Shown here in pieces: positions 437 to 36,819 of a stretch of 64,000 nucleotides of DNA (the stretch's first letter is position 1; each line of letters begins with the position of its first letter). Position numbers and translations under genes: made by a program. This DNA comes from Oscillospiraceae bacterium (lineage in GTDB: Bacteria > Bacillota > Clostridia > Oscillospirales > Oscillospiraceae): positions 41,402 through 105,401 of the forward strand of contig JAFTGD010000034.1 in NCBI GenBank assembly GCA_017458065.1, read 5' to 3'. The notes under the pieces are model-generated. The model was not told the origin of the DNA and ran no database searches. It saw nothing but the letters and a program-made list of their open reading frames with translations.

Positions 437-1312
437 CTATTCATTTACGGGGTCCCCTGCCGGCGATGGGTCGGCCGGCAGGACCCGCTCACGGAAGCCG
501 AGATGCAGGGCGTCGGTCGGGCAGGCCGAGACGCAGATCCCGCAGCGGATGCACTCGGCGCTGTTGGGCCTGCGGACCGGATCCGCCTGCATGGGGCAGG
601 CCCGGGTACAGCCGCCGCAGTGCACACAGCGCTGCTCGTCATGCTGCATCCGGAGAAGGCTCACGCGGTTCAGCATCCCATAGATGGCCCCCAGCGGGCA
701 GAGGTACTTGCAGAAGGGGCGGAAGACCAGCACACTCCCGATCACGACGGCCAGCAACACCAGCATCTTCCACCCGAACAGCAGCCCGAGGGCGAAGTTC
801 GTCTTCGCCCCGTGCAGCAGGACCAGAGGAATCCCACCCTCCAGGGTCCCCGCCGGACAGAGGAATTTGCAGAAAGTCGGCGTCCAGGCTGTCAGCATCG
901 GCAGTATGATAACCAGCAACAGCAGCACCAGGTATTTTCCCCACCGGAGCGGCCGGTCCAGCCGGAAGTGCTCCGGTTTTTTCTTTGGGAAGGGGATTTT
1001 GTGCAGCAGCTCCTGCACGAAGCCGAAGGGACACAGAAAACCGCACACTGCCCTCCCGAGCAGCGCGCCGAAGAACAGCAGAAAGCCCATCACGTAATAG
1101 GGGAAGCGGATCGGCCGGGACGAGAGGAAGTTCTGCAGCGCGCCGATGGGACAGGCGCCCACCGCGCCCGGGCAAGAATAGCAGTTCAGCCCGGGGACGC
1201 ATACGTTTTTTCCGGCTCCCTGATAGATCTTCCCGGTTGCAAAGCCCTTGAAATTGGCGTTCTGAATCAGCAGGGCGCAGAACTGGATCCAGCTGCGCGC
1301 CTTTTTAACCAA
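437..1312 (-). CDS. 4Fe-4S membrane polyferredoxin (NapH/YccM-like)
   Basis: Integral membrane electron-transfer protein of 291 residues. The N-terminal part holds CxxC/CP motifs (CYSCPG, ACPIG), then several membrane spans containing FLCPFG, FLCPAG and YLCPLG motifs. The C-terminus has a pair of ferredoxin-type clusters, CVHCGGCTRACP and CIRCGICVSACP. The family passes electrons across or along the membrane to periplasmic redox partners. The start is TTG (codon 1312-1310), overlapping the preceding 44-aa CXXC gene by 8 bp, with GGAG upstream; no ATG fits better. It is the last gene of a TlpA-CXXC-polyferredoxin operon, so a role in supplying electrons to the extracytoplasmic TlpA-like thioredoxin is inferred. 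Confidence 0.85.
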   Translation of the reverse strand: MVKKARSWIQFCALLIQNANFKGFATGKIYQGAGKNVCVPGLNCYSCPGAVGACPIGALQNFLSSRPIRFPYYVMGFLLFFGALLGRAVCGFLCPFGFVQELLHKIPFPKKKPEHFRLDRPLRWGKYLVLLLLVIILPMLTAWTPTFCKFLCPAGTLEGGIPLVLLHGAKTNFALGLLFGWKMLVLLAVVIGSVLVFRPFCKYLCPLGAIYGMLNRVSLLRMQHDEQRCVHCGGCTRACPMQADPVRRPNSAECIRCGICVSACPTDALHLGFRERVLPADPSPAGDPVNE

Positions 1313-1439
1313 CGCCGATGCACTCCAGGCAAATCTGCGCCGCCTTGCGCAGCACCTGCTGGTTCTGCCCCAGCCAGAGGCCGAGGCCGATCAGCCCTGC
1401 AGAGGCTGCGAGCAGCAGGCCGGGGATGCCTCTTCTCAT
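1305..1439 (-). CDS. CD1871A-type small membrane protein with CxxC motif
   Basis: A 44-residue protein: positively charged start MRRGIPG, one hydrophobic helix (about residues 7-24), then a C-terminal ICLECIGVG motif with a Cys37-x-x-Cys40 pair. This matches the short 'CD1871A family CXXC motif-containing protein' that sits between a TlpA-like gene and a 4Fe-4S membrane protein in Clostridia. Its ATG overlaps the TGA of the TlpA gene (ATGA), and its own stop overlaps the TTG start of the polyferredoxin gene, so all three are translationally coupled. It may be a redox relay between membrane clusters and the lipoprotein thioredoxin; this is inference. Confidence 0.8.
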   Translation of the reverse strand: MRRGIPGLLLAASAGLIGLGLWLGQNQQVLRKAAQICLECIGVG

Positions 1440-2050
1440 TTCAGCAGCTCCTGGATGACCGTTTCCCACTGGGCATAGCTCCGGCTGCCGCCGTACAGCT
1501 CCCCGACCAGATGGCCCTCGCCGTCCACAAAGATGGTCACCGGGATGTAGCCAGTGTTCATCACTTTGTCGATGCTCTCGGTGAGCCGCAGCGTGGGATA
1601 AGTGACGCCGAGCTCTTCCATCTTCAGGATGTTGTCCTTTTCATACTCTTCCATCGAGATCCCCAGGATCCGGAAGCCGTCCTCCTCGTATTTCTCATAG
1701 AGTTTCTGCAGGTCCGGCATCTCGCCGACGCACGGCGGGCACCAGTAGGCCCAGAGGTTCAGCATGGTGAGCTTTGCCTCCGCAAAGCAGAGATCGGTCC
1801 ACTCGTTCCCTTCCGTGTCCACGGTGGTGAAGACGATATCCGGGCTCCAGTCCTCCGGAACCGCCGCCTCTTCGCTCTCCGGCGTTTCGGTTTCCGGGGC
1901 TTCAGGGGTGCTTTCCGGGATTTCGGTTTCCTGTACCTCCGCTGAGGGAGCTGGGGTTACGGCTGACGCGGCCGCCTGTTGTCCGCAGCCGGCGAGCGCC
2001 AGGCAGCTGAGCAGCAGGGCCAGTACGCAGCATATGATCGTCTTTTTCAT
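1436..2050 (-). CDS. TlpA/ResA-family thioredoxin-like lipoprotein
   Basis: Protein of 204 residues with a lipoprotein signal peptide (lipobox ALAGC, lipidated Cys22), an acidic Pro/Glu/Thr-rich spacer (about 30-68), and a thioredoxin fold whose active site is WCPPC (Cys104, Cys107). Such proteins reduce disulfides or heme-binding cysteines outside the membrane. The promoter at 2094-2122 and coupling to the CXXC peptide and polyferredoxin genes make it the first gene of a three-gene extracytoplasmic redox operon. No cytochrome maturation gene is visible nearby, so a general thiol-reductase role is more likely than cytochrome biogenesis. Confidence 0.88.
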   Translation of the reverse strand: MKKTIICCVLALLLSCLALAGCGQQAAASAVTPAPSAEVQETEIPESTPEAPETETPESEEAAVPEDWSPDIVFTTVDTEGNEWTDLCFAEAKLTMLNLWAYWCPPCVGEMPDLQKLYEKYEEDGFRILGISMEEYEKDNILKMEELGVTYPTLRLTESIDKVMNTGYIPVTIFVDGEGHLVGELYGGSRSYAQWETVIQELLK

Positions 2051-2093
2051 TTGGTTCCTTCTTTCATGCGGTGTTTTTTCTTCCTATTGATCA

Positions 2094-2122
2094 AGTATGA
2101 AGGAGAACTTCTCTTTTGTCAA
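2094..2122 (-). promoter_or_regulatory. sigma-A promoter of the TlpA operon
   Basis: On the minus strand TTGACA (2122-2117), a 17-bp spacer and CATACT (2099-2094). The spacer contains the odd palindrome GAGAAGTTCTC, a possible operator. The rest of the 418-bp gap (2051-2468) holds no gene. Confidence 0.6.
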
Positions 2123-2370
2123 GAGTATTGCAACCGTCGAACACTCTCTTCTGCGCCGCGGCTGTGTCCGTGTTGTGCCGCACAGCCATTCTGTCATCTT
2201 GACGATAATTCTGAATCCCGCCTGAAGACAGAAATGCCGTTTCGGACACTTTGTCCGCCGGTGTCAGGACAGGGCACATTCCTGCGTTTGTTAAAACCTT
2301 GCTAAACGTGTAAAAACAACCCAATTTTTGTGCAAAAGTGCCAGTTCGTGCAGTTCTATTTGATTCTGAA

Positions 2371-2399
2371 TTGACTTTCTTATGAAATTTTTATATAAT
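2371..2399 (+). promoter_or_regulatory. sigma-A promoter of the small-protein/OYE operon
   Basis: TTGACT (2371-2376), exactly 17 bp, then TATAAT (2394-2399). Transcription would start near 2406, about 60 nt before the ATG at 2469. Confidence 0.75.
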
Positions 2400-2468
2400 A
2401 TATGGGTGCAAAACTGTGGTTTTCATAGCAGTACATCATCATACTTTTTACAGGAGGGAGTAACATCT

Positions 2469-2678
2469 ATGAAGAAAGCAGCAAAGAAGCTCTTGTTCCT
2501 CGCTTGCTTCGGCGGCTTTGCTTATCTGCTCGGTAAGCTGGCTCAGAAGGATGAAGTCCAGGAGAAGCTGTTTGAAGTCCTCGGCGAAGACACCTACCTC
2601 GCCATCCTCGACAAGGTCCGTCTCGGCGGCGACCTGCTCATGTGGCCGATCGACTACGTCAGAGCTTTGCTTCCGTGA
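2469..2678 (+). CDS. small membrane protein of unknown function
   Basis: A 69-residue protein starting MKKAAKKLLF, with an AGGAGGGA ribosome site about 10 nt before the ATG. I prefer this start to the upstream in-frame ATG at 2382, which has no ribosome site and lies on the promoter. Residues 8-20 form a short hydrophobic segment after a Lys-rich start; the remainder is an amphipathic helix-rich tail ending in YVRALLP. It precedes the flavoenzyme gene by 37 bp and shares its promoter. I do not recognise the family; membrane tethering of, or partnership with, the flavoenzyme is only a guess. Confidence 0.7.
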   Translation: MKKAAKKLLFLACFGGFAYLLGKLAQKDEVQEKLFEVLGEDTYLAILDKVRLGGDLLMWPIDYVRALLP

Positions 2679-2715
2679 TCGGTACGGAAAGTCTATTTTG
2701 AAAAGGAGTTAATCT

Positions 2716-4776
2716 ATGAATCCGAAATATGAGCCTCTATTTACTCCGTTCAAAATCGGAGAGGTAGAAATCCCCAACCGCATCGTGCAATGTTCCATGG
2801 GCGGCACGACCCTGTTCGGCTGGCTGGAGCCTTCCCACTTTGACCTGGAAGGCGCGGACTTCCTGCTCAAACGTGCGAAGGACGGCGTCGGCCTGGTCCT
2901 CCCCGGCATGCAGGTCATCCGTGACACCATGGGCCGCAAGTGGCTCGATTCCAACCGTCAGATGTACCGTGTGCTCAAGCCCTATATGGACGAGTATCAC
3001 AAGACCGGCGGTAAGCTCTTCATTCAGCTGGCAGGCGGCTTCGGCCGTTCCATGGCCGTTACCCCCTGGATGGCCGCCCTCGGCAGAAACGACCTGCTGA
3101 ACAAGATCGCCAGCCCCATCGTCGACGTGCAGTATGCCTGTGCCTCCGCCTCCGCCACTCCGAACCGCTGGGCCGACAACCTGACCTCCCGTCCCTTCAC
3201 CGTGGAAGAGATCCAGGAGATGGTCTGGCACTTCGGCGCCACCGCCAAGAAGCTGCGCGAAGCCGGTGTCGACGGCGTTGAGATCCACGCTGTACACGAA
3301 GGCTACAACCTCGACCAGTTCGCCATTGCGAACATGAACTTCCGTACCGACCAGTACGGCGGCTCTCTGGAGAACCGTCTGCGCTTCGCCACTGAGATCG
3401 TCCAGTCGATCCACGAGCAGGCCGGCGACGACTTCCCCGTCTCCCTCCGTTATTCTGTCCGCTCCTGCACCAAGGGTTGGCGCAAGGGTGCCATGCCCGG
3501 CGAAGAGTTTGAAGAGTTCGGCCGTGACCTGGCTGAGTCCGAGAAGGCCGTCAAGATCCTGCAGGATGCCGGCTATGCCTTCCTCAACTGCGACAACGGC
3601 ACCTACGACGCCTGGTACTGGGCACATCCGCCACAGTACATGCCGGATAACTGCAACCTCGCAGACGTTGAGCACATCCGTCAGTTCATCGACATCCCGG
3701 TCGCCTGCGCCGGCCGTATGGATCCGGTCAAGGCCGCGGAAGAGATTGCCGCCGGCCGTCTGGACGCCGTCGCCATCGCCCGCCAGAACCTGGTTGATGA
3801 GCACTGGGTCACCAAGATCAAAGAGGGCCGCGAAGACGAGATCCGTCCCTGCATCCGCTGCCACAACGGCTGCTTCAACTTCTCCAAGGCTGCCGGCACC
3901 GAGAACATGCAGTCCCTGGGCGACTCCCTGCACCTCGGCCGCTGCGCTCTGAACCCGCCCACCATGCAGCACAACCGCTATAAGATCGTCCCGACCAAGA
4001 AGCCCAAGAAGGTCGCCATCATCGGCGGCGGCGTCGGCGGTATGGAGTGCGCGCTGGTCCTGAAGAAGCGCGGCCACAACCCGGTCATCTTCGAGAAGGA
4101 AGATCAGCTCGGTGGTCTGTTCCTGACGGCTTCCGCGATGACCTTCAAAGAGAACGACAAGGATCTGCTCCGCTGGTACCGGGACGAGATCAAGCGTTAC
4201 AACATCGACGTCCGCTTCAACACCGAGGTCAACGACCTTGGCACCATCAAGCGCGGCTTTGACGAGATCATCGTCTGCACCGGTTCCGTTCCCAGAGCCA
4301 TGCCTCAGATCAAAGGCTTTGACAAGACCATGAGCTTCCGCGAGCTGCTCCGCGAGAAGAAGGAATGCGGCGACACGGTCGTCTTCCTCGGTGGCGGTCA
4401 GTCCTCCTGCGAGGCGGCCTACGACCTCGTCCTCGCCGGCAAGCACCCGGTCATCGTCGAGTACGGCAACGACCTGGTCGCGGCTCAGGCTACCTGCCTT
4501 GCCAACACCTCGTTCCTGCGTGACGCCATGGAGTATCACAAGGTTCCGACCTATCTGCACAGCACCATCACCGAGATCGGCGACGGCTACTGCATGATCA
4601 AGACTCCGGACGGTGAATTCAAGCAGGAGTGCGACACCGTTGTCAACGGCATCGGCTTTGTCCCGGCTCCGGTCGGCGACAAAGGCGCACATGTGCACCG
4701 CGTCGGCGACTGCGTTGCCATCGGCAACCTGCGCACCGTTATCTGGCGCGCATGGGATGTTTGCATGCGCATCTAA
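2716..4776 (+). CDS. OYE-family NADH:flavin oxidoreductase / 2-enoate reductase-like flavoenzyme
   Basis: Protein of 686 residues with the three-part architecture of 2,4-dienoyl-CoA reductase, 2-enoate reductase and BaiCD/BaiH enzymes. An N-terminal FMN TIM barrel contains the HAVHEGYNLDQF and YGGSLENR segments. A [4Fe-4S] cysteine set follows (CIRCHNGC and a later C), then a C-terminal FAD/NAD(P) dinucleotide-binding half (IIGGGVGGMECAL; VVFLGGGQSSCEAA). It probably reduces an alpha,beta-unsaturated carbonyl or acid with NADH. The C-terminal codons for RAWDVCMRI are part of a tandem repeat that also duplicates the terminator downstream. Ribosome site AAGGAG is well placed. Substrate unknown. 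Confidence 0.88.
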   Translation: MNPKYEPLFTPFKIGEVEIPNRIVQCSMGGTTLFGWLEPSHFDLEGADFLLKRAKDGVGLVLPGMQVIRDTMGRKWLDSNRQMYRVLKPYMDEYHKTGGKLFIQLAGGFGRSMAVTPWMAALGRNDLLNKIASPIVDVQYACASASATPNRWADNLTSRPFTVEEIQEMVWHFGATAKKLREAGVDGVEIHAVHEGYNLDQFAIANMNFRTDQYGGSLENRLRFATEIVQSIHEQAGDDFPVSLRYSVRSCTKGWRKGAMPGEEFEEFGRDLAESEKAVKILQDAGYAFLNCDNGTYDAWYWAHPPQYMPDNCNLADVEHIRQFIDIPVACAGRMDPVKAAEEIAAGRLDAVAIARQNLVDEHWVTKIKEGREDEIRPCIRCHNGCFNFSKAAGTENMQSLGDSLHLGRCALNPPTMQHNRYKIVPTKKPKKVAIIGGGVGGMECALVLKKRGHNPVIFEKEDQLGGLFLTASAMTFKENDKDLLRWYRDEIKRYNIDVRFNTEVNDLGTIKRGFDEIIVCTGSVPRAMPQIKGFDKTMSFRELLREKKECGDTVVFLGGGQSSCEAAYDLVLAGKHPVIVEYGNDLVAAQATCLANTSFLRDAMEYHKVPTYLHSTITEIGDGYCMIKTPDGEFKQECDTVVNGIGFVPAPVGDKGAHVHRVGDCVAIGNLRTVIWRAWDVCMRI

Positions 4777-4999
4777 AATTTGTTTGTGTCCCTCCCCCGC
4801 TGGGGGAGGGATACGTTTTTGTTCGCATGGGACGTCTGCATGTGTATCTAAAGTTTGTTTGTGTCCCTCCCCCGTTGGGGAGGGATACGGTTTTTTGTTC
4901 GCATGGGATGTCTGCATGCGTATCTAAAGTTTGTTCGTGTCCCTCCCCCGCTAGGGGAGGGATACAGTTTTCTGTTCGCATGGGATGTCTGTATGCGCC
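4749..4999. repeat. tandem repeat of gene 3' end plus terminator hairpin (3 full copies + partial 4th)
   Basis: Units start at 4749, 4824, 4900 and 4977 (periods 75, 76, 77 bp; last copy truncated at about 23 bp). Each full unit carries the last codons of the flavoenzyme (encoding AWDVCMRI-stop or a variant), then a G/C hairpin and a T-rich tail. Hairpins lie at 4790-4810 (9-bp stem), 4865-4884 (8 bp) and 4941-4961 (8 bp). Copies differ by only a few substitutions. Confidence 0.9.
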
Positions 5000-5023
5000 T
5001 TGATTTTCCCCATAATAGTTTAA

Positions 5024-5049
5024 CCCTCTCCTTTCGGAGAGGGTTTTTT
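5024..5049. terminator. intrinsic terminator between convergent genes
   Basis: Stem CCCTCTCC / GGAGAGGG (8 bp), 4-nt loop, followed by six T on the plus strand. It closes the flavoenzyme operon after the repeat array and abuts the stop of the convergent gene at 5049. Confidence 0.8.
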
Positions 5050-5417
5050 CATTTCGAAAGCAGTTCGTCCATCTTTGCCGCGGCAAAGCGGATCAGGTCG
5101 TCGCAGGGGATCTTCGCCGCTTTCAGGTCCTCGCAGCGCACCGCGCCGAACTTCTCACGGAAGGCGGCGATCAGCTCCCGGTCGACGCCGTTGATCAACG
5201 GGCGGTTCTCAGCGCCGTACTTCATCCCCGCTGCCATCACCGCGCCGGAGATCGCCCCGCACAGCTCCCTGCAGCCGGCTCCGCCGCCAAAGCCCGTGGC
5301 AACCGCCGCGGCGGTCTTTTCATCCAACCCGGAGTGCTTTTGGAGGGTCATCAGGACCGACTGCGCGCAGTTATATCCCCTGTCATGCAGGGCAGAGGCT
5401 TTTTCTTCGGTTGTCAT
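5049..5417 (-). CDS. C_GCAxxG_C_C family redox-type protein
   Basis: Protein of 122 residues with the cysteine pattern of the C_GCAxxG_C_C family: Cys17 in GYNCAQSV, the GAGCRELCGAISGAVMAAG core (Cys49, Cys53), and two C-terminal cysteines (Cys95, Cys104). These small proteins are common in anaerobes and are thought to bind metal or act in redox reactions, often alone or next to oxidoreductases; their biochemistry is not established. It has its own promoter (5498-5527) and convergently faces the flavoenzyme operon. Confidence 0.85.
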   Translation of the reverse strand: MTTEEKASALHDRGYNCAQSVLMTLQKHSGLDEKTAAAVATGFGGGAGCRELCGAISGAVMAAGMKYGAENRPLINGVDRELIAAFREKFGAVRCEDLKAAKIPCDDLIRFAAAKMDELLSK

Positions 5418-5497
5418 GGGTCGTCCTCCCGTATGGTTGTGAATTTTCTGTCCGGCCTGCGCCTCCGCAGCCCGGCAGAACCGCCTGTTATTTATGA

Positions 5498-5527
5498 ATT
5501 ATAACATATAGAAGCCATGTTTGTCAT
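5498..5527 (-). promoter_or_regulatory. promoter of the C_GCAxxG_C_C gene
   Basis: Minus strand ATGACA (5527-5522), 18-bp spacer, TATAAT (5503-5498). The aminotransferase promoter on the other strand must lie in the same 231-bp gap; a weak TGGATT-17-TATGAT candidate ends near 5577. Confidence 0.55.
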
Positions 5528-5648
5528 TGAGAACTTTTCTATTCTGTCAATGGATTTTTCCCCTTTTTTTTGCTATGATTACAGTTACTTCTTTCCTTCG
5601 CTATCAAGGCAAAGAAAGGAGCAGACAGAAAGAAAAGGAGATATTATT

Positions 5649-6845
5649 ATGCAGCTGAAACTTTCCGACAGAATTATGAAGCCCGACTTCCAGGGCGAAT
5701 TCACCGCCTCCATTCTGGCCGCGGCAGCCTCTCCTGACATTATCTCCTTCGCCGGCGGCCTGCCGAACCCCGTTTCTTTCCCCATTCCGGAGATGGAAGC
5801 TGCCACGAAGAAGGTTCTCGAAGAGAATGGCGTCACCGCCCTGCAGTACAGCTCCACCCAGGGCTGGCCCGCCCTGCGCAAGTGGATCGCCAAACGCTAT
5901 GAGACCATGGGCGTCAGCGATGTGAGCCCCGACGATATCATCGTCACCAACGGCTCCCAGCAGGCCCTCGCCATGATCGGCGCCGCCATGATCAACCCCG
6001 GCGACGAGATCATCGTCGAAGATCCCACTTACCTGGTCGCGCTGCAGTCCTTCCATGTGTTTGATCCCTCCGTCCTGACCGTCACCATGAATCCCGACGG
6101 CATCGACTGCGGTGAGCTGGCTGAGACGATCAAGAATCATCCCGAAGCCAAGTTTGCCTATCTGATCCCGAACTTCCAGAACCCGACCGGCCTGAGCTAT
6201 TCTCAGGAAGTCCATGACAAGGTCGTTGAGATCTTCAAAAACAGCAACGTGCTCCTTCTCGAGGACAACCCCTACCGCGAGATCCGCTTCGCCGGCACCG
6301 CCACCGACAGCTTCGGCAAGGAGCTGGGCGAGCAGTGCTGCATGCTGGGCACCTTCTCCAAGATCATCACCCCGGGCATGCGCATCGGCTGGATCTGTGT
6401 CCGCAACAAGGAACTGAAGGCAAAGCTTCTCAACTACAAGTCCACCGCCGACCTGCACACCAACATCTTCAGCCAGATGGTCCTGGCCCAGTACCTGGCC
6501 GACAACGATGTGGACGAGCACATCGCGAAGATCAAGGAACTCTACAAGGCCAAGTCCGACTTCATGGTCGCCTGCCTCAACAAGTACCTGCCCGAGGGCT
6601 GCGAGCTCACCCCCACTGAGGGCGGCATGTTCCTGTGGGTCACTCTGCCGAACAACCTTTCCGCGCTGCAGCTCTACTACAAAGCGCTGGAGAAGGGCGT
6701 CGCCATCTGCCCGGGCGATCCGTTCTATGAATATAAGCGCAATGTCTCAAGCTTCCGCGTCAACTACTCCAACTCCACCGACGAGGCCATCGAAAAGGGC
6801 GTCAAGATCCTCGGTGAGGCCTGCGCCGAAATGATGCAGGCGTAA
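5649..6845 (+). CDS. PLP-dependent aminotransferase (class I/II, MocR/LysN-like)
   Basis: Fold-type I aminotransferase of 398 residues. Landmarks are FAGGLPNP near the N-terminus, the QQAL helix, NFQNPTG, EDNPY and the cofactor lysine in GTFSKIITPGMRIGW (Lys238). The pattern resembles 2-aminoadipate / aromatic / branched-chain transaminases of the LysN-KAT branch, so it likely interconverts an amino acid and its 2-oxo acid using 2-oxoglutarate. The start at 5649 has AAAGGAG just upstream; the longer frame from 5517 has no ribosome site. It stands alone, ending in a strong terminator. An aromatic substrate would fit with IorAB in this window, but that is only suggestive. Confidence 0.87.
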   Translation: MQLKLSDRIMKPDFQGEFTASILAAAASPDIISFAGGLPNPVSFPIPEMEAATKKVLEENGVTALQYSSTQGWPALRKWIAKRYETMGVSDVSPDDIIVTNGSQQALAMIGAAMINPGDEIIVEDPTYLVALQSFHVFDPSVLTVTMNPDGIDCGELAETIKNHPEAKFAYLIPNFQNPTGLSYSQEVHDKVVEIFKNSNVLLLEDNPYREIRFAGTATDSFGKELGEQCCMLGTFSKIITPGMRIGWICVRNKELKAKLLNYKSTADLHTNIFSQMVLAQYLADNDVDEHIAKIKELYKAKSDFMVACLNKYLPEGCELTPTEGGMFLWVTLPNNLSALQLYYKALEKGVAICPGDPFYEYKRNVSSFRVNYSNSTDEAIEKGVKILGEACAEMMQA

Positions 6846-6876
6846 GCTGCAAAATTCAACCTGATCCAGACCTGGC

Positions 6877-6922
6877 AAAGGCCGGGAAGTATCGAATCCG
6901 TTCGGTACTCCCCGGCCTTTTT
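6877..6922 (+). terminator. intrinsic terminator of the aminotransferase gene
   Basis: Arms AAAGGCCGGG (6877-6886) and CCCGGCCTTT (6911-6920) pair perfectly and end in a T-run. Confidence 0.8.
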
Positions 6923-6954
6923 GGTTTTTGAAATTCAGCCGCTCTCCGCGCTGC

Positions 6955-8688
6955 TCAGCTCTTCAATGCGGTCTTGTTTTGATACATCCGGTTGTCCGCA
7001 CGCTCGAAGACCTGCGAGACCGTGGTGTCGCTCCCGGCGTCGTAGTCCGACATGCCGACGGCAATCACGACCTTCCCTGTCGCCATGTTCTCCCGGACCT
7101 GATCCTTCATCTGCTGCAGCAGGGCATGGCGGTTGTCATAGTCTCCGCCCTGCGGCACTACCACGAACTCGTCCCCTCCGATGCGGAACACGGGGCTGTG
7201 GGACCAGGTATGGCAGATGAGCTCGGAGGCGCTGCGGATATACGCGTCCCCCTCGATGTGGCCCAGGCCGTCGTTAATAGCCTTCAGACCGTTGACATCG
7301 CAGACGACAATGGAGAAGGGCCTGACGCTGCCCGCTTCGATCTGCTCCTGCAGGGCGTCCTCCGTCTCGGTGTAGGCGGCTTTGTTTTTGACGCCGGTCA
7401 GTCCGTCCCGATAGGCCTTCACGCTGGCCACATGCAGCTTTTCCTGGACCTCGCGCTCCCTCCGCACCTCCTGGTCGATGTTCATGACGCCGATGATCAG
7501 GTGCTTATTGTCATTGGCCCAGATGACCGACATCCTCGCGTACATGATCCCGTCGCCAACGAGCAGACGGTAGGTGTGGGTGATCATGTGCTTGCCCTGC
7601 AGCATCTGCATCATGGTTGGCTTATGCAGCAGACGCAGGACCTCGTCCCGGTCCTCGGGATAGATCACGCGCTTGATGTTGTCGATCGACTCGCGGAAGA
7701 AGTCCTCACCGGACGGCCGCACCTGCAGGCTCTTGTAGACATCCGTAGAGGAGAACTCGGTATAGTGATCCGTGAGCATATCCACATAATAGATCGTGTC
7801 GTACTGGTTGGCGAGGCTCTCCGCGATCTGCGAGAAGACCGCGTTCTCGGCGACCATCCTCTTGATCGCGTTTTCCCGCTGGATCTCGCTGTCGATGTTC
7901 ATCACGGTCATGATCAGGTGCTTCCGGTCGTTGGCCCAGAAGACCGACATGCGGGTGTAGCTGCTGCCCTCCGCCAGCAGAAGCTGATAGGTAAGGGTGA
8001 AGCTGCCGTTCTCTTCCAGCTTCCGGAGCATGGTCTTCTTGTCCAGCGCCTCGAACACGCGCTCCCGGTCCGACGGGTGAACGATCATGCCGACGTTGCG
8101 TTGGGAGGTCCCGAAAAAGTCGCTCCCGACCGGGCTGATGTTGAATTCCTTATACTCTCTTGCAGCGGTGAACTCGATATACTCGTCGGTCTCGGTATCG
8201 ATGTAGTAAATCATCCCGTACTGGTTGGCCAGGCTCTCCGCGATATGGGAGAAGATAAGGCTCCGCTCCGAGATGGTCCTGAGCTCTTCCTGATGCCGGA
8301 CCGTCTCGTCCACGTTCTGCACCCCCAGGACCATGTAGTCGCCCTCCTCGGAGGTGTCGTGGAGGATGCGCATGGCATGGAAGACGGGCTGCCCGTCGAT
8401 CATCAGGCGGTAGATCAGCGAAAAGCCCCCGTTCTCCCGGAGCCGGGAGAGCAGATTCTCTCTGCTGAGCGCTCTGGACACCATATCCCAGTCGTCGTCG
8501 CAGACGACAGCCCGGATGTCCCGCTGGCAGTCGGCGAAAAAGTCGGTCCCAGAGGACTGCAGCTCCAGCTTCTGATAACCCCGGTTGGTGCTGTAGCTCT
8601 CATAGTGATCGTTTTTCAGGTCAATAAAATATACGCTGGTATAATCGATCAGCAGGGCCATGGCGACCCTTGCAATGGTACTGTTCAT
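6955..8688 (-). CDS. diguanylate cyclase with three tandem PAS-like repeats
   Basis: Protein of 577 residues. Three related ~140-residue modules occupy about 15-150, 150-290 and 290-430. Each repeats an I(Y)YID-x-(x)TD(E/H)Y opening, a GxDFF motif and a final VxNID/E segment, as expected for PAS-like sensor folds. A GGDEF domain follows, with DGLTGVKNK and an intact GGDEF at 504-508, so it should make cyclic di-GMP. The allosteric RxxD inhibition site normally just before GGDEF is absent (the region reads HTWSHSPVF). No membrane segment is evident, so it is likely a cytosolic sensor. Monocistronic; ligand unknown. Confidence 0.88.
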   Translation of the reverse strand: MNSTIARVAMALLIDYTSVYFIDLKNDHYESYSTNRGYQKLELQSSGTDFFADCQRDIRAVVCDDDWDMVSRALSRENLLSRLRENGGFSLIYRLMIDGQPVFHAMRILHDTSEEGDYMVLGVQNVDETVRHQEELRTISERSLIFSHIAESLANQYGMIYYIDTETDEYIEFTAAREYKEFNISPVGSDFFGTSQRNVGMIVHPSDRERVFEALDKKTMLRKLEENGSFTLTYQLLLAEGSSYTRMSVFWANDRKHLIMTVMNIDSEIQRENAIKRMVAENAVFSQIAESLANQYDTIYYVDMLTDHYTEFSSTDVYKSLQVRPSGEDFFRESIDNIKRVIYPEDRDEVLRLLHKPTMMQMLQGKHMITHTYRLLVGDGIMYARMSVIWANDNKHLIIGVMNIDQEVRREREVQEKLHVASVKAYRDGLTGVKNKAAYTETEDALQEQIEAGSVRPFSIVVCDVNGLKAINDGLGHIEGDAYIRSASELICHTWSHSPVFRIGGDEFVVVPQGGDYDNRHALLQQMKDQVRENMATGKVVIAVGMSDYDAGSDTTVSQVFERADNRMYQNKTALKS

Positions 8689-8807
8689 CTGCTGCCTGCA
8701 TCCTCCTGCGTGACTTTTTCGATGATCTCATCTGCGGTCATAAGGTGCGCCTCTTGCCCGGGAAACCCGGCAGATTACGACGCGATCATACAATGTTATA
8801 GATTGCC

Positions 8808-8840
8808 CGTTAGATCCTCGCCTCCGGCGAGGATCTAACG
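8808..8840. repeat. perfect 15-bp inverted repeat (hairpin)
   Basis: Arms CGTTAGATCCTCGCC and GGCGAGGATCTAACG with a 3-nt loop. No T-run follows on either strand, so it is not a classical terminator. It lies 120 bp upstream of the diguanylate cyclase start and marks the left border of the AT-richer AbiE islet. The 434-bp gap 8689-9122 otherwise holds only the AbiE promoter. Confidence 0.8.
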
Positions 8841-9078
8841 CATGTTCCGGTCAAGCACTTTGTTTGTCAGCCTATCTTATCACGAACCCTCTGCCTGAGC
8901 AACAAAAAAACAGGCTGAAAACCGGAGATTTTGGCATTTTCGCTCTGTACGCCGATCTTCGGTGGACGAAAGTTGTATAAACGGTTGTAGAACAACAAAT
9001 TGGATTGCGGGCGATTATCGTTCGTCCATAAAAAGTAACAACTCGACTAAAAATATAAAATTCACTCTGTTTGACGCC

Positions 9079-9128
9079 TTGACAGCGCAAGTTTCATCAA
9101 ATATAATAGTTTCACCGAATCGGTGAAA
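9079..9128 (+). promoter_or_regulatory. consensus promoter with palindromic operator (AbiE autoregulation candidate)
   Basis: TTGACA (9079-9084), 17 bp, TATAAT (9102-9107): a perfect consensus promoter. Immediately after the -10 box is the perfect palindrome TTTCACCGAATCGGTGAAA (9110-9128, 9-1-9), covering the transcription start. AbiEi antitoxins repress their own promoters through inverted repeats, so this is the likely binding site. Confidence 0.75.
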
Positions 9129-9140
9129 TGGGTGATTTTA

Positions 9141-10214
9141 ATGAAACACACTTTATCTAAAAAGCAATATGTGCAGTTGGCTATTGACCAATTCTGTAGG
9201 GTGATAAACCAGGTCCCCTTCATTTCTGACACAGAAATCCAGACGAATGATCATCAAAGCTCGTCAAAGAGCCCTGACTTTTCGGTTTATACACATATCC
9301 AACAGCGCGGAGAGACTATCAAATTCAATATTGAAGTCAAATCCAGCGGAGAAAAGCGATTTGCTCGGGCTTTTGCTGATCTTGTTGCAATGCAAAACGC
9401 AAAGTCAAATTGGGTTTTTATGGCTCCCTACATTTCAGCCGAGACAGGAGAATTCCTTAAAGCGCAGAACCTGAACTTTATGGATTTGTCTGGAAACTGC
9501 TACATCTCTGCATGGTATCTTTTTATTTCGGTTTCGGGACAGCCAAATCAATATATCGAAAGAAGAGATAAGAAAGCGTATTTTTCAAAGTCTTCATCCG
9601 GTGCGTCTTCGGTAATACGTACAATGCTAAGCACGCCAACAAAATGGTGGCAGGTAAAGGAGTTAGCCGAAAAATCTGGGAAAGCGATGGGGACAGTATC
9701 TAATGTAAAATCCTATCTGCTTGAACATGACTGGCTTGAAGAAAACAACGGAAAATTCAGAGCCTCCCATATTAAAGATCTCTTACAGGCATGGGCGAAG
9801 GATTATCATTTAAAAGACTCCCTGTCGTACCAATTTTACTCGCTTGATCCTATCCCAGAGATAGAAAAAATGGTGGCGCAGTGGAGCAATTCACATGAAG
9901 GCGCCGCGCAGCTCAGTTCTATTTCTGCCGGCGCTCGATATGCACCGGTAGTACGGTATACAAAAGCCCACCTCTATGTTCAGCCGCAGTATCTTGCTGA
10001 GATTCGGCGAGATTTGAACCTGCAGGAAGTGGAATCCGGCGGAAATGTCATGATTACGATCCCGCATGACCAGACGCCCTATATAGATACACGCATCATA
10101 AACGGCGATCCTATTGTATCCCCGGTCCAAGCGATACTGGATTTGCTTGGAGAATCAAGTCGAGGTGAAGAGGCTGCTGAAGCAATCATATATAAAGAAT
10201 TTGGAGATCAGTAA
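9141..10214 (+). CDS. type IV toxin-antitoxin AbiEi-family antitoxin / repressor
   Basis: Protein of about 357 residues starting MKHTLSKKQY. An in-frame GTG at 9123 lies inside the operator, so the ATG at 9141 is preferred. The N-terminal half contains an IEVKSSG segment resembling an E-x-K restriction-like core. The middle has a winged-helix-like stretch (KWWQVKELAEKSGKAMGTVS...), and the C-terminus ends in a SPVQAILDLLG motif typical of AbiEi proteins, which neutralise the partner nucleotidyltransferase and repress transcription. It precedes the nucleotidyltransferase by 2 bp. Base composition is clearly more AT-rich than the neighbouring genes, suggesting acquisition by transfer. Confidence 0.75.
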   Translation: MKHTLSKKQYVQLAIDQFCRVINQVPFISDTEIQTNDHQSSSKSPDFSVYTHIQQRGETIKFNIEVKSSGEKRFARAFADLVAMQNAKSNWVFMAPYISAETGEFLKAQNLNFMDLSGNCYISAWYLFISVSGQPNQYIERRDKKAYFSKSSSGASSVIRTMLSTPTKWWQVKELAEKSGKAMGTVSNVKSYLLEHDWLEENNGKFRASHIKDLLQAWAKDYHLKDSLSYQFYSLDPIPEIEKMVAQWSNSHEGAAQLSSISAGARYAPVVRYTKAHLYVQPQYLAEIRRDLNLQEVESGGNVMITIPHDQTPYIDTRIINGDPIVSPVQAILDLLGESSRGEEAAEAIIYKEFGDQ

Positions 10215-10216
10215 CG

Positions 10217-11050
10217 ATGATTAGAGATGAAGATCTAAAGCACGCAATAGACTACTCAGAAGGCCAAAAGCAGGCTGCCTACGCGGTTCTCGGTGAAATC
10301 GTCAACATCTTGAATGAATTCGAGGAAGATATTCGAATCATCGGAGGCTAGGTACCGTCTCTCGTTTTCCCGGACGGCGAGCACATTGGATCGATAGACG
10401 TCGATGTGCTTCTGAATCAGGAGAAAATCAAGAAAGCCGAAAGCTATCTTACAATCAAGCGGATACTGTTGAAGAACGGATATCAGAAACACCCCGAAAA
10501 GTTCTTTACCTTTGTAAAAACCGTAATTGTCGATGGTGTCAGATATGATGTTGATGTCGATTTCCTGTCTGGTAAATATGGTGGCGATGGCGGAAATGTC
10601 AGCAAGCATGTTGATGGTATCAAAACACTTCCCGCGACTGGCGGTAATTTTGCGTTTGAATTTCCGGCCTATGACGTTACCATTCAGTACACCAGACCTG
10701 ACGGAGCATTGGACACTGGCCATGTTAAGGTGATTTCTGTTGTCCCGTATCTCGTAATGAAAGCGGCTGCACTTGGCCGGGGAAAGCCAAAAGATGCCTA
10801 TGATATTTACTATACGGTTGACCATTTTGAGGGTGGTGTAAGGGCCTTGGCCGAAGAGTTCAAGCCGTATAAAGATAAGGCCTTGGTAAAAGAGATGACA
10901 CAAAAGCTCAATGAGAAATTTGCGTCCTATCGGCATGCCGGCCCCGTGGACATTGTGTCTTTCCTTTCTATTGACGATGAGGAAGAAAGAGCGCAAATCC
11001 AGCAGGACGCTTTTCAGAAGATCCATTACTTAGTGGGACAACTCCTATAG
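10217..11050 (+). pseudogene. AbiEii-family nucleotidyltransferase toxin interrupted by an amber codon
   Basis: The reading frame starts at the ATG at 10217, two bases after the antitoxin stop, and runs to 11050 (278 codons). Codon 45 (10349-10351) is TAG. The frame is otherwise intact: before it comes ...DIRIIGG, after it VPSLVFPDG...HIGSIDVDVLLN, the GG-W and GS-x-D-x-D nucleotidyltransferase motifs. The amber codon sits where the family has Trp after GG, so one G-to-A change (TGG to TAG) explains it. A GTG at 10406 could restart translation but would lack the GG motif. Either the toxin is dead, the base is a sequencing error, or rare readthrough occurs. C-terminal features (RGKPKDAYDIYY) match the AbiEii fold. 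Confidence 0.8.
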
Positions 11051-11063
11051 AATCTTAATTCGT

Positions 11064-11114
11064 TTGCCCGTCACGCTTTTTTGCGCTATAATGATGTAAA
11101 ATATGATATTTTAC
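11064..11114 (+). promoter_or_regulatory. promoter and palindromic operator of the TetR gene
   Basis: TTGCCC (11064-11069), 17 bp, TATAAT (11087-11092), followed by the perfect palindrome GTAAAATATGATATTTTAC (11096-11114, 9-1-9) over the start region. Probably an autoregulatory TetR operator. Confidence 0.65.
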
Positions 11115-11142
11115 AACTGTTCGTCATGGAGCGTGATAAAAT

Positions 11143-11694
11143 ATGGTGCGTAAAACAACAAAAGAGATCCTTGCCGAATCTTTTATCGAACTTGCGGCAC
11201 AGAAGTCAATCAACAGAATCTCAATTCTTGACATCGTTGAAAACTGTTCTTTGACAAAACCGACTTTTTACAGATATTTCAAGGATAAATATGATCTGAT
11301 CACATGGATCTATATCCGGGAAGCGCAAAAGAATCTGAGCAAGATCGGGAAAAACGGCTATCTGTGGAAAGATACCTTGCTGGACGGTCTGCACTACTAC
11401 GAGGAAAACCGCAAATTCATGTTGAATGCCCTGAAGCACACAAGCGGCAGAGATTCTTTTATCCAGCAGATTAACAGGGTTGATGTGGAATTGATTACCT
11501 CGGAAATTCAAAAAAAGCTGGACGCTGACAGAATCCCTGCGGATCTCAACGCAATGATCCGGATTTACTGTTATGGGACCGGACAGTATCTGTGCGATTG
11601 GCTCATGGACAGCAAACCCGCTTCCTGTGAAAGCGTGGCAACAGTCATGGAAGCCTGTATTCCGGAGCAGCTGAGACCGTTTTTGTGTGAGTGA
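11143..11694 (+). CDS. TetR/AcrR-family transcriptional regulator
   Basis: Protein of 183 residues. The first 50 form a TetR helix-turn-helix (TKEILAESFIELA ... ISILDIVENCSLTKPTFYRYF), followed by a helical ligand domain of the DhaS/YxaF-like C-terminal type. It is preceded by a promoter with a 19-bp palindrome and followed by a long inverted repeat and a terminator, so it forms its own transcription unit. Codon usage is AT-richer than downstream genes, like the adjacent AbiE pair. The target is unknown; self-regulation is likely. Confidence 0.85.
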   Translation: MVRKTTKEILAESFIELAAQKSINRISILDIVENCSLTKPTFYRYFKDKYDLITWIYIREAQKNLSKIGKNGYLWKDTLLDGLHYYEENRKFMLNALKHTSGRDSFIQQINRVDVELITSEIQKKLDADRIPADLNAMIRIYCYGTGQYLCDWLMDSKPASCESVATVMEACIPEQLRPFLCE

Positions 11695-11733
11695 GCATCT
11701 TCAAAGATAAAACCACGGCTTCAAAAGAGGTCA

Positions 11734-11777
11734 GTATAGAATCAGAGTCAGGAATGTTCCTGACTCTGATTCTATAC
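11734..11777. repeat. perfect 21-bp inverted repeat
   Basis: Two 21-nt arms (11734-11754 and 11757-11777) are exact reverse complements around a 2-nt loop. It directly precedes a second, terminator-type hairpin and closes the AT-richer islet on the right. Confidence 0.85.
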
Positions 11778-11809
11778 GGCGGCTTTCGTTTATGAAGCCG
11801 CCTCTTTTT
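11778..11809 (+). terminator. intrinsic terminator between convergent genes
   Basis: Arms GGCGGCTT (11778-11785) and AAGCCGCC (11795-11802), then TCTTTTTCT. Ends the TetR transcript. Confidence 0.75.
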
Positions 11810-11818
11810 CTTTGTCCT

Positions 11819-12457
11819 TTATCTTGTCTCGACCAGGGCTTTTCCCATTGCAAATGCTTTTTTCATTTCCTGCGGGAAGACGGTTTCATGCCGTTTCTGC
11901 TTGGCCTCGCCGTCAAAATACCAGGGCCAGTCCGTCTTGCTGTAGTCCTTGAGCTGCAGCGTGTCACCGCTGATAAGAAGCTGCGTGGGGCCGACAAAGC
12001 GGCTCAGCGTCTGCTGGTAGCTTCGCATAAGGCCGGTAAAATAGGTATCGGGCGCGTTGCTGGTCATAATGAGCAGAACCGGAACAGGATTTGAGTTGCA
12101 GCATGGGACGTCGGCATTGTAAGTCAGATTCTGGAACACCAGGCGCTCATACAGTGCGCGGAAGGAAGCGCTCAGCTCCCCCAAGTAATTGGGAGAACCG
12201 ATGATCAGACCGTCTGATTCCCGGATGGCGTCCAGCACCGGCGTCAGTCCGTCGCGGCAGATGCAATGCCCCTTGTTCTTTTCACGCTTGCAGCCAAAGC
12301 AGGAAATGCAGCCGGTATACTTCTCCAGCCGGACCAGATCAAACTTCTCAACGACCGCCCCGGCGGCTTCGGCGCCCCTGGCGGCCTCGGTTACAAGGGT
12401 GTCGGTATTCCAGCCCTTGCGGGGGCTGGCGTTGACGGCGACGATTCTTTTTTCCAT
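11819..12457 (-). CDS. flavodoxin-fold NADPH-dependent FMN reductase / iron-sulfur flavoprotein
   Basis: Protein of 212 residues with the FMN-reductase fold: VNASPRKGWNTDTL (phosphate-binding loop) at the N-terminus and IIGSPNYLGELSASFRALYERL in the middle. A cluster of cysteines (CISCFGCKREKNKGHCIC, about 50-67) resembles the [4Fe-4S]-binding region of clostridial iron-sulfur flavoproteins, which transfer single electrons and can reduce O2 or peroxide. It lies 13 bp downstream of the EFR1 ferredoxin gene and is the last gene of an ohrR-bcp-EFR1-flavodoxin transcription unit, so a role in oxidative defence is inferred. Confidence 0.85.
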   Translation of the reverse strand: MEKRIVAVNASPRKGWNTDTLVTEAARGAEAAGAVVEKFDLVRLEKYTGCISCFGCKREKNKGHCICRDGLTPVLDAIRESDGLIIGSPNYLGELSASFRALYERLVFQNLTYNADVPCCNSNPVPVLLIMTSNAPDTYFTGLMRSYQQTLSRFVGPTQLLISGDTLQLKDYSKTDWPWYFDGEAKQKRHETVFPQEMKKAFAMGKALVETR

Positions 12458-34952: not shown

Positions 34953-35173
34953 CGGAGCAGATCATCGTCTGTGCGTTTCTGGCCGCATACGCTGTTCTTG
35001 TGGATCTGACCGCGGCGACGCTCCGCAGTCAGGGTGACATCTACCAGACCGGTCCCATGACGGTCTGGGGCGCAATCATAAGCGCGGTCGCCGTCGTACA
35101 GATCCTGCTGGTGTTCCGCGCCCGGATCAGGAAAGAAGCCGGACGGCTGAAAAGCCGTGTCCGGAAAAAATAA
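34949..35173 (+). CDS. small two-span membrane protein coupled to the hydroxyacid dehydrogenase
   Basis: A 74-residue protein with two hydrophobic helices (about 4-24 and 37-56) and a strongly basic tail (RARIRKEAGRLKSRVRKK). Its ATG overlaps the stop of the FMN enzyme by 4 bp, so the two are made together. I do not recognise the family; a membrane anchor or electron-acceptor link for the FMN enzyme is a guess. Confidence 0.65.
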   Translation: MTEQIIVCAFLAAYAVLVDLTAATLRSQGDIYQTGPMTVWGAIISAVAVVQILLVFRARIRKEAGRLKSRVRKK

Positions 35174-35191
35174 AAACTGACATAAAAAGAT

Positions 35192-35235
35192 GCGGCCAAA
35201 TCCGAGGTTTTTCACCGGGATTTGGCCGCTTTCTT
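35192..35235 (+). terminator. intrinsic terminator of the hydroxyacid dehydrogenase operon
   Basis: 12-bp arms GCGGCCAAATCC and GGATTTGGCCGC, then TTTCTT; adjacent to the convergent TIR gene end. Confidence 0.8.
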
Positions 35236-35247
35236 CTGCATGATTGC

Positions 35248-36759
35248 CTATGGCTCTTCCGCCGGGACAAGCGTCACGGCAGTTCCTTCCAGCACAGGGC
35301 GGAGCACAGCTTCCATGCTCTCATTCGCATAGACGGTCTTCAGCGCTGGCAGCTTTGCCAGACCGGACCAGTCAAGGTTCTCGCCCGTGCGCTCCAGCCG
35401 CAGGGTGGTGAGGCCTGTAAAGTCCCCCAGGTTTTCGGTGGAGTTGAGCTTGCAGTCAATCAGAGACAGACTCACAATGTCGTATTCGTTGTCAAAGGCC
35501 TTGAAGAAGCTGCCCCGCAGATCACAGTCATAAAACGTCACGTCCGTCAGGCTGCTCAACCGCATCGGGACCCGCAGCTGGTTGATGCCGCAGTTGGAGA
35601 CCGCGATCTCGGCCAGACGGGTCAGGGGCTTGAGCGCGGAAAAATCGGTGATGTTGGCGCCCAGCAGGCTGATGCGCCGCAGCTGCAGACAGTACTGCAG
35701 GTCGCCCAGATCCCGCAGCGGGCATCCGTCCGTGCAGATTTCCCGCAGGTTTGGGAGATTGGCAACACCTTTGAGGCTGGTCACTTTACAGCCGGAGAGA
35801 TCCAGGTATTCGATGCCGCAGAGCGGCAGGCTTTCCAGTGAGCGCAGCGGCTGCGCTGTCAGGCTGAGCTTATCCAGGTCGGTAAAATACCGGAGGTCGT
35901 TCAGGCTCTCGATCCCACCTTCGGTCCCGGAAGCCTCTTCCGGTTCTGAGAACGAATACCGGTCACCGCTGATGAAGAGCTCGGTCAGGCCTGCCAGATC
36001 GCCGACATGCAGCTCGCCCTCCTCAATGCTGGCATATTCCCTCGCCGCCTGCTCCAGGATCGGGTTCTCCAGCTGCACGACGGTGTCGTCGGGCAGCGCT
36101 TCCGGCATCGTCTGCTGCCGTTTGATGAAGAGCCGCTGTGCAAGCCCTGTGGAGTAGGCGATGATCCCCAGCGTCACACAGGCGACCAGCGCCAGAAGCA
36201 GAATCGAAAGACGGACGATCCGGCGGACCTTCCGCTTTTTCTTCTTCCTGGCCTCTACGGTCAGGTCCACCGGGACCTTTTTGCGTTTTTGCGGCCGCTG
36301 CCTCCGCCGGTCCTTCCGCTCCCCGTCTGACTGCAGAAGCGGGTCCAGCTGCGGCGCGGCAAAGAGCTTATCGTAGAACACATCGTCATTCATGGTGTAC
36401 TTCATCAGCGCGAAGAGATTGCCGACCTGCATCTCCATGCCCGGCGTCATCTGTGTCTCTTCCAGGAAAATGTTGACGATGGGAATGCGCTTGGAGAGCG
36501 CATAATGCATCTCCCTGCGGCAGTTGTCCGAGCGCATGTAGGCGTTGGAGAGGAAGGCGATCATCAGTCCGGCAGAAGCCAGATGCTTCGCGATGTACTC
36601 CGGCCATTCGCTTCCGACTTCGATGCCCTCGTCATACCAGATGCGGTATCCCTGATCGCTCAGCTCCTGAACGACTTCCATAACGGCCGGGGAATTGGCG
36701 TGGGCGTAGCTGATAAAAATATATGGCTGATCCCCTTCATAGGGCGTGAGGTAGCTCAT
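35248..36759 (-). CDS. TIR - transmembrane - leucine-rich-repeat receptor-like protein
   Basis: Protein of 503 residues. Residues 11-135 are a TIR domain: YIFISYAHANS (box 1), YRIWYDEGIEVGSEW (BB loop), and FLSNAYMRSDNCRRE, matching the S-x5-S-x2-C-x2-E pattern with Glu83 as candidate NAD-cleaving residue. A very basic linker (144-182) precedes one membrane helix (183-202). From about 225 the chain is leucine-rich, with five or more LRR-like units (LxxLxLxx...L). The positive-inside rule puts TIR in the cytosol and the LRRs outside, the mirror order of animal Toll-like receptors. Own promoter; no effector gene adjacent. The ligand and function are unknown. Confidence 0.87.
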   Translation of the reverse strand: MSYLTPYEGDQPYIFISYAHANSPAVMEVVQELSDQGYRIWYDEGIEVGSEWPEYIAKHLASAGLMIAFLSNAYMRSDNCRREMHYALSKRIPIVNIFLEETQMTPGMEMQVGNLFALMKYTMNDDVFYDKLFAAPQLDPLLQSDGERKDRRRQRPQKRKKVPVDLTVEARKKKKRKVRRIVRLSILLLALVACVTLGIIAYSTGLAQRLFIKRQQTMPEALPDDTVVQLENPILEQAAREYASIEEGELHVGDLAGLTELFISGDRYSFSEPEEASGTEGGIESLNDLRYFTDLDKLSLTAQPLRSLESLPLCGIEYLDLSGCKVTSLKGVANLPNLREICTDGCPLRDLGDLQYCLQLRRISLLGANITDFSALKPLTRLAEIAVSNCGINQLRVPMRLSSLTDVTFYDCDLRGSFFKAFDNEYDIVSLSLIDCKLNSTENLGDFTGLTTLRLERTGENLDWSGLAKLPALKTVYANESMEAVLRPVLEGTAVTLVPAEEP

Positions 36760-36790
36760 GGTGTTTCATCCGCTCCTTTGTACGCCGCAC

Positions 36791-36819
36791 AGTATACCAC
36801 ACGGGGCGGTGCCCGACAA
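36791..36819 (-). promoter_or_regulatory. promoter of the TIR-LRR gene
   Basis: Minus strand TTGTCG (36819-36814), 17 bp, TATACT (36796-36791), then AAAGGAG before the ATG. The remaining 290 bp to 37110 hold no gene I can see. Confidence 0.65.

Follow-up and report, generated by a model that had tools for sequence, protein, structure and literature searches.

In the window, the 64,000-nucleotide stretch of Oscillospiraceae DNA analyzed here, one minus-strand gene encodes, from the N-terminus onwards, a TIR domain, a Lys/Arg-rich linker, a membrane helix and a leucine-rich repeat (LRR) region, an arrangement that we abbreviate as TIR-TM-LRR (Table 1). An earlier note had called this open reading frame and its parts from the sequence; its coordinates (35248-36759) were exact, and the TIR domain, the linker, the single helix and the LRR were all found again. 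A consensus promoter scan of the region gave 3 sites against 0.7 expected. The hairpin directly past the stop codon folds at -32.2 kcal/mol (z -5.4 vs shuffles; fold of 35170-35247), and it is not listed by the consensus terminator scan, which allows loops of 3-8. Based on the promoter-like site, the Shine-Dalgarno-like AAAGGAG and this strong terminator-like hairpin, the receptor gene is probably transcribed on its own. Repeats around the gene consisted of short pairs only and were taken for chance.

Table 1. Features of the TIR-TM-LRR receptor gene in the window, and tandem gene pairs in related loci (locus coordinates).
Feature	Position	Strand	Remarks
TIR-TM-LRR receptor gene	35248..36759	-	503 aa + stop, ATG start
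TIR_2 domain	36340..36732	-	residues 10-140, own boundaries; Pfam PF13676 gives 14-106
Ser17 codon	36709..36711	-	aligned with AbTir Ser140
Asp43 codon	36631..36633	-	aligned with AbTir Asp167
Asn79 codon	36523..36525	-	occupies AbTir Trp204 position
Glu83 codon	36511..36513	-	aligned with AbTir Glu208 and Glu of solved TIR NADases
Lys/Arg-rich linker	36211..36339	-	residues 141-183
Single membrane helix	36154..36210	-	residues 184-202
Juxtamembrane and LRR cap region (inferred)	35989..36153	-	residues 203-257, from sequence
Predicted external LRR domain	35269..35988	-	residues 258-497, ten units
Ribosome-binding-site-like AAAGGAG	36773..36779	-	Shine-Dalgarno-like, read from sequence
Sigma-70-like promoter TTGTCG-17-TATACT, TG ahead of second hexamer	36791..36819	-	consensus scan
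Terminator-like hairpin directly past stop codon	35192..35229	-	RNA fold of 35170-35247
Tandem pairs, intact TIR-TM-LRR + degenerate TIR-like-TM-LRR	L053 ~900-5100; L055 ~3200-5970; L056 ~7970-12170		
Further such tandem pairs	L062 ~770-3550; L068 ~4030-6960		second gene without catalytic Asp, Glu

Pfam assigned the N-terminal domain to TIR_2 (residues 14-106, E 1.5e-20, 74.4 bits vs a cut-off of 28), and a profile of 52 TIRs (alignment A2) matched Cat1, AbTir, TLR and SARM1 chains in the PDB. The S-x5-S-x2-C-x2-E pattern pointed out in the earlier note is present as SNAYMRSDNCRRE, with its Glu at residue 83. This Glu is kept in 22/22 distinct full-length TIR-TM-LRR proteins and in all 58 TIRs of the subfamily (the 52 rows of A2 and 6 added later), among which Asp43 is kept in 58 and Ser17 in 57; the three residues are retained jointly across 29-86% identity to the window's TIR. 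Equivalences to AbTir residues were read off the TIR profile alignment. In AbTir, S140, D167 and E208 are among the residues required for NADase activity, which is abolished by S140A and D167A, and Arg151 and Trp204 are also required, according to the passages of PMC11374754 cited here. The window TIR therefore has the catalytic Glu together with the Ser and Asp required in AbTir, and has Met27 and Asn79 in the positions of Arg151 and Trp204. The Trp204 position is Asn in 22/22 full-length proteins and 51/52 rows of A2, and in 1/6 of the later rows. Among 20 more distant TIRs, the Glu is present in 19 and an equivalent of Asp43 in 4, with Pro standing there in most; in these alignments, Asp43 is a feature of the subfamily. 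Glu at the catalytic position is also frequent in some TLRs, as stated in the cited part of PMC7075850, and by itself is no proof of NADase activity.

Manik 2022, as cited in PMC11374754, ties 2'cADPR to Trp204 of AbTir and describes this residue as required for it, and TcpC tolerates loss of the Trp, again in the passages of PMC11374754 cited here. The proposal made in the earlier note that the protein might signal with cyclic ADP-ribose is weakened by the Asn found at this position in every full-length protein, which argues against 2'cADPR and is a better fit for ADP-ribose or NAD loss. Instead of 2'cADPR, we would thus expect ADP-ribose, a simple loss of NAD, or no activity at all.

The window protein contains one hydrophobic helix, whose best 19-mer is 184-202 with a Kyte-Doolittle mean of 2.6. 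There are 13 Lys/Arg in the 25 residues preceding it vs 3 in the 25 following, in keeping with the basic stretch ahead of a single helix that had been described before. The same holds for the 22 full-length proteins, the window's included, all of which have one helix with 5-14 Lys/Arg before and 1-4 after (25 residues each) and an acidic ectodomain with a net charge of -4 to -21. Because Lys/Arg lie on the TIR side and the LRR side is acidic in 22/22 proteins, the predicted topology places the TIR in the cytosol and the LRR outside the cell membrane, and the earlier proposal of a cytosolic TIR with an external LRR is to this extent supported by prediction. A census of TIRs in one GTDB family (120 genomes, 31 of them with TIR_2; 52 places and 50 ORFs, the window and four orthologs included) found a helix after the TIR in 20/50 ORFs, 19 with the same charge bias and one with a tie; eight of the 50 were TIR-TM-LRR, one of these being assigned by Pfam. 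A hydrophobic stretch near the N-terminus was present in 12/16 LRR-only relatives. The PASTA, C-type lectin and PepSY parts that follow the helix in some relatives are of kinds that are generally directed towards the cell wall. Also found after the helix are TPR, Sel1, beta-propeller, FGE-sulfatase and DUF6273 parts, which by themselves are no argument for an outside location. The ectodomains of the 22 full-length proteins have 5-10 cysteines, some of them conserved (8 in the window protein, 35251-36153). Several cysteines are unusual for exported proteins of many Gram-positives, and they count against the reading of the protein as a receptor with an outside LRR.

Ten LRR units extend from residue 258 to the end of the protein, eight of them 21-24 aa long and the first carrying a 15-residue insertion. 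The description of the region after the helix as nothing but leucine-rich units thus holds up to the C-terminus, but not for residues 203-257, which we read as a juxtamembrane and cap region. Pfam recognized LRR_4 at residues 317-355 (E 2.6e-10, 40.6 bits vs a cut-off of 27), and a profile of 8 ectodomains matched internalin chains at E 1.8e-28 as the nearest solved relatives. Mean pairwise identity across the 22 proteins is highest in the TIR (69%), intermediate in the LRR (49%) and lowest in the linker (31% over 141-183 in 22 rows; 28% over 141-180 in 11 rows). Within LRR units 1-8 of the same proteins, mean pairwise identity was 0.35 at exposed concave positions, 0.62 in the core and 0.57 on the convex side (p 8e-5, concave vs convex), giving a concave/convex ratio of 0.61 (95% 0.49-0.80). 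The ratio was 0.90 (95% 0.78-1.05; concave 0.58 vs convex 0.65, p 0.09) in a control comprising 12 other LRR proteins of the genus, a single family that has a higher LRR identity (0.67 vs 0.49) and in which 1 of 13 units was misregistered by the pattern. The low identity of the exposed concave positions would fit a diversifying ligand face.

The same domain order occurs in other genomes. A pattern scan of GTDB contigs returned 74 stretches, among which 50 loci encode a relative; with further genomes added, the distinct full-length TIR-TM-LRR proteins numbered 22 with the window's included. In the genus, the query has a match in 99/101 genomes, counting the window's own and many that are incomplete, but for the most part this match is confined to the LRR or the TIR; near-full-length orthologs, counted at E < 1e-140, are found in 16 of these 101 often incomplete genomes. 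Across the class, TIR profile A2 matches in 55/391 genomes. The window genome itself has 4 TIR_2 proteins, all with a helix; the three besides the window's (L147:2245-3651, L147:5171-6217 and L091:7643-8374) are distinguished by Sel1 repeats in one case, an acidic Pro-rich tail in another and a short tail in the third.

Other C-terminal parts take the place of, or accompany, the LRR in relatives. Locus L072 (20-2566) encodes a TIR-TM-PASTA-LRR protein, L158 (1480-2979) a TIR-TM-PASTA-C-type lectin protein whose PASTA scores 21.2 bits, below the cut-off of 23.2, and L010, from the same genus, a TIR-TM-PepSY protein. In L072 and L158 the TIR sits where PASTA receptor kinases have the kinase. We built a tree of 71 TIRs, which retained 82 of 110 TIR matches (28 that were low-scoring, short or cut were left out) minus 11 long-branch rows; LRR-bearing rows were labeled from a pattern match, except for 13 loci that were labeled manually, in most cases according to Pfam. 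The window's 12-row clade has a support of 100/99 (bootstrap/SH-aLRT), and L010 is nested in the window's TIR-TM-LRR clade, with enclosing forks supported at 98/87 to 100/99. The TIR-TM-LRR label changes 6 times (gains or losses) on the tree, at least 4 of these changes being forced by well-supported branches. The label changes and the PepSY form inside a TIR-TM-LRR clade indicate that C-terminal parts have been swapped on a conserved core of TIR and helix, and on this tree the window protein is the LRR version of a family with the same TIR and helix and exchangeable C-terminal parts. TIR-TM-LRR proteins are also found in a distant TIR subgroup (L163, L165 and L166), with L135 standing apart from these. 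By Pfam, L043 (8001-9437) encodes a TIR followed by BspA-type LRR_5 and no helix, so the combination of a TIR with an LRR need not denote a membrane receptor. L153 (1501-2961) was assigned as a soluble TIR-LRR_5 by its likeness to L043.

A cousin TIR-TM-LRR protein in the same genus, 388 aa long and ~45% identical in the TIR, is encoded within a conserved operon of 4-7 genes, which we read in six loci (L207-L212). All six contain the TIR-TM-LRR gene, an HD-like gene of ~700 aa (Pfam E 0.015-0.019 in the two members run), a helix-bearing pseudo-TIR of 267-280 aa, and 1-3 copies of a 1,007-1,039-aa protein with a degenerate TIR-like N-terminus and a helix, for which LRR was found in the one member run through Pfam. 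Profile comparison with the TIR profile gave a probability of 98.8 for the pseudo-TIR and 74 for the N-terminus of the large protein. Four of the six loci further contain a protein with 3-4 helices (in the three members measured) and with weak matches to SLOG (E 0.016, in 1 of 2 members run) and to DUF4231 (E 3e-4 and 1e-3, under the cut-off), a domain that we take to belong with SLATT; the two loci that lack it stop close to where their contig ends. Upstream in 2/6 loci are an HTH-like gene and a kinase gene, and in L211, the one case with Pfam assignments, the latter encodes Pkinase and LRR with a helix between them. In firmicute phages, TIR genes lie beside SLATT genes, and SLATT is a predicted effector of membrane permeability regulated by ADPr derivatives, according to the cited part of PMC9503650. 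A RyR domain, initially suspected in the HD-like gene, was not listed by Pfam at E 0.1 and was dropped. Relatives of the HD-like gene also lie directly before a helix-less TIR gene in other Clostridia (L154:37-2349 and L157:36-2376), which hints at a recurring pair.

Tandem pairs of related genes were compared at seven loci, two of the sister-operon type (L015 and L017) and five on contigs labeled Lachnospiraceae (3), Firmicutes (1) and Oscillospiraceae (1). The two genes are separated by -4 to 30 nt, and in 7/7 pairs, three of which are near-copies, the active member keeps the Asp and the Glu and its partner has lost both. Such a split, with the residues present in only one of the two TIRs, is what an enzyme accompanied by a regulatory partner would be expected to show. 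The window gene stands alone, and to that extent the earlier idea of a one-gene system holds; it does not extend to the sister TIR-TM-LRR of the same genus, with its 4-7 gene operon and pseudo-TIR membrane partners. In the window's own genome, the pseudo-TIR query had just two matches, the window gene and a further TIR-TM gene (E 5e-8 and 5e-7), and a search for the SLOG/DUF4231 protein, run without a positive control, gave no match.

By Pfam, the ten neighbors examined around the window gene comprise a LysR regulator, citrate-type and MFS transporters, an HMGL-like protein, two CoA-transferases, an FMN dehydrogenase, an AAA/DUF4143 protein, an RlmA-like methyltransferase and ETF alpha, and none of them is a defense gene. 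A search for a shared partner gene across 12 loci, one of them the PepSY variant, returned generic matches only: LysR-type regulators in 4 loci (the pair in L086/L087 being 69% alike), isolated pairs at 25-42%, and ORFs running antisense to the gene for the receptor. Across 16 genus loci, several cut by contig ends, no neighbor was shared by more than 8, and that one, presumably amylomaltase-like, reflects local synteny; other neighbors reached at most 6. These comparisons agree with the remark that there is no obvious effector partner. No gene for ThsA adjoins the receptor gene, as it adjoins ThsB in Thoeris, and PADLOC matched the receptor in its TIR part only, with PDC-S66 as the best match (28.7 bits, E 2e-7) and ThsB at 17.4 bits. 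No relative was confirmed by a pattern scan of IMG/VR, which reaches close relatives only. A set of 50,697 phage records gave three matches, one to the TIR part and two to the LRR part; the latter two and a Listeria plasmid record, the sole plasmid match, are LRR-only matches at 29% identity. The former, MT836178.1 (8086-8412, from human feces), is 40% identical to the TIR part over query residues 7-115. A phage or plasmid origin of the gene was accordingly rejected, as plasmid and phage records match the LRR alone or the TIR alone. The phage role raised in the earlier note thus has no direct support from neighbors that are metabolic, transport and regulatory genes plus AAA/DUF4143, or from IMG/VR, and a defense role for the receptor is possible but unsupported.

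Drawing on the domains and their conservation, the charge bias, the modularity of the family and the tandem pseudo-TIR cousins, we lean slightly towards a single-pass membrane receptor with an enzymatic TIR, that is, a ligand-gated membrane NAD hydrolase. The LRR, predicted to lie outside, would bind a ligand through its concave face; binding would bring chains together, so that the cytosolic TIR domains assemble; the assembled TIRs, judging from the kept catalytic residues, would cleave NAD+; and ADP-ribose-type products, local NAD loss or both would lead to cell arrest or a signal. Counting against this reading are the missing equivalents of Arg151 and Trp204 of AbTir, the restriction of Asp43 to the subfamily, and the frequency of the Glu in some TLRs. 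The first and the last of these points would suit a non-enzymatic scaffold receptor as in animal TLRs, in which the external LRR senses and the TIR recruits another TIR or signaling protein without cleaving NAD+, since a Glu at the catalytic position does not prove activity and the three other TIR-TM proteins of the genome could serve as partners. However, the joint retention of Ser17, Asp43 and Glu83 over 29-86% identity, and tandem pairs in which one TIR has the catalytic residues and the other does not, argue against such a scaffold, and we consider it unlikely. That the protein is a host-directed TIR effector blocking animal TLR signaling seems highly improbable: several relatives do come from rumen or gut samples, but the TIR is predicted to lie inside the bacterial cell behind a membrane helix.

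The ligand-gated NAD hydrolase could take either of two forms. As an anti-phage abortive-infection receptor, its LRR would recognize a phage as it adsorbs, or a change that the phage causes at the surface, whereupon its TIR would drain NAD+. This would follow the logic of the TIR defense proteins of Thoeris, SPARTA and TIR-STING (in the cited part of PMC11249213), and both the patchy presence of near-full-length orthologs, noted above with many genomes incomplete, and the variable concave LRR face are consistent with it. The absence of a defense gene by Pfam among the ten neighbors, the lack of any shared neighbor beyond local synteny in 8/16 loci, the confinement of PADLOC matches to the TIR part and the lack of a confirmed IMG/VR relative point the other way, leaving this form rather doubtful. 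As a sensor of the cell envelope, nutrients or competitors, the hydrolase would instead be a TIR counterpart of receptor kinases bearing PASTA or LRR, with peptidoglycan, a glycan or a surface protein as ligand and regulation, not cell death, as output. The PASTA, PepSY and C-type lectin parts of relatives, the kinase-TM-LRR gene heading the sister operon in 2/6 loci (by Pfam for L211 only) and the metabolic gene context favor this form. Known TIR outputs are mostly toxic or immune, which weighs against it, and we regard it as a reasonable possibility to be held tentatively. The likelihood that the ligand is a cue from the cell wall or surface is no lower than that of a phage ligand.

By its sequence, the window protein is a bacterial TIR-TM-LRR protein with a layout like that of Toll-like receptors in reversed order, and a member of a family with exchangeable C-terminal parts. 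As in animal Toll-like receptors, TIR and LRR are predicted to lie on opposite sides of one helix, inside and outside. In contrast to their LRR-TM-TIR order, the order here is TIR-TM-LRR, the NADase residues are kept, the LRR is of internalin type with about ten units, and the TIR is of a bacterial subfamily. Box 2 RDxxPG and Box 3 FW, which are boxes of metazoan receptor TIRs in the cited part of PMC7075850, are absent; the sequence of the BB region is WYDEGIEVG, and the TIR lacks an FW. The protein shares the TIR family and the Ser, Asp and Glu positions required in AbTir with the bacterial TIR NADases AbTir, TcpC, SpbK and Cat1, but differs from these in its added membrane helix and LRR and in the Asn at the Trp204 position. 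With Thoeris (ThsB TIR and ThsA SLOG) it has a TIR domain in common, and a weakly matched SLOG protein occurs in 4/6 sister loci, but no ThsA adjoins the window gene and ThsB is not known to have a membrane-LRR part. PASTA receptor kinases (PknB/PrkC) likewise have a signaling enzyme inside, one helix and ligand-binding repeats outside, and PASTA occurs in relatives of the window's TIR, which stands in place of their kinase. Internalin-family proteins are the closest LRR sequence relatives with solved structures; their members are displayed on the surface or secreted, and are not known to carry a TIR.

Among the matches listed in our literature search, which covered little of the subscription literature, no paper described a bacterial TIR-TM-LRR receptor. 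One candidate, the PSP paper PMC11237479, was set aside, as "Tir" in the part cited refers to CesT/Tir chaperones. To our knowledge, the events sensed by those bacterial TIR proteins that have been studied take place within the cell. Coupled across the membrane to an external LRR, a TIR enzyme would represent the counterpart of Toll-like receptors in bacteria. More broadly, we put forward, at a confidence somewhat short of even, that a reversed Toll-like receptor system is native to Clostridia, in which single-pass receptors combine an enzymatic TIR inside with exchangeable ligand-binding domains on the outside (LRR, PASTA, C-type lectin or PepSY), sometimes with dead-TIR co-receptors and a SLOG-type membrane effector, to turn extracellular recognition into an NAD-derived signal. 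With such a receptor, the way in which recognition outside the cell can drive NAD+ cleavage by a TIR could be tested directly in simple hosts, and its existence would show that the plan of Toll-like receptors can emerge repeatedly. If the proposal is true, the plan of Toll-like receptors with the LRR outside and the TIR inside arose in bacteria independently, more than once.
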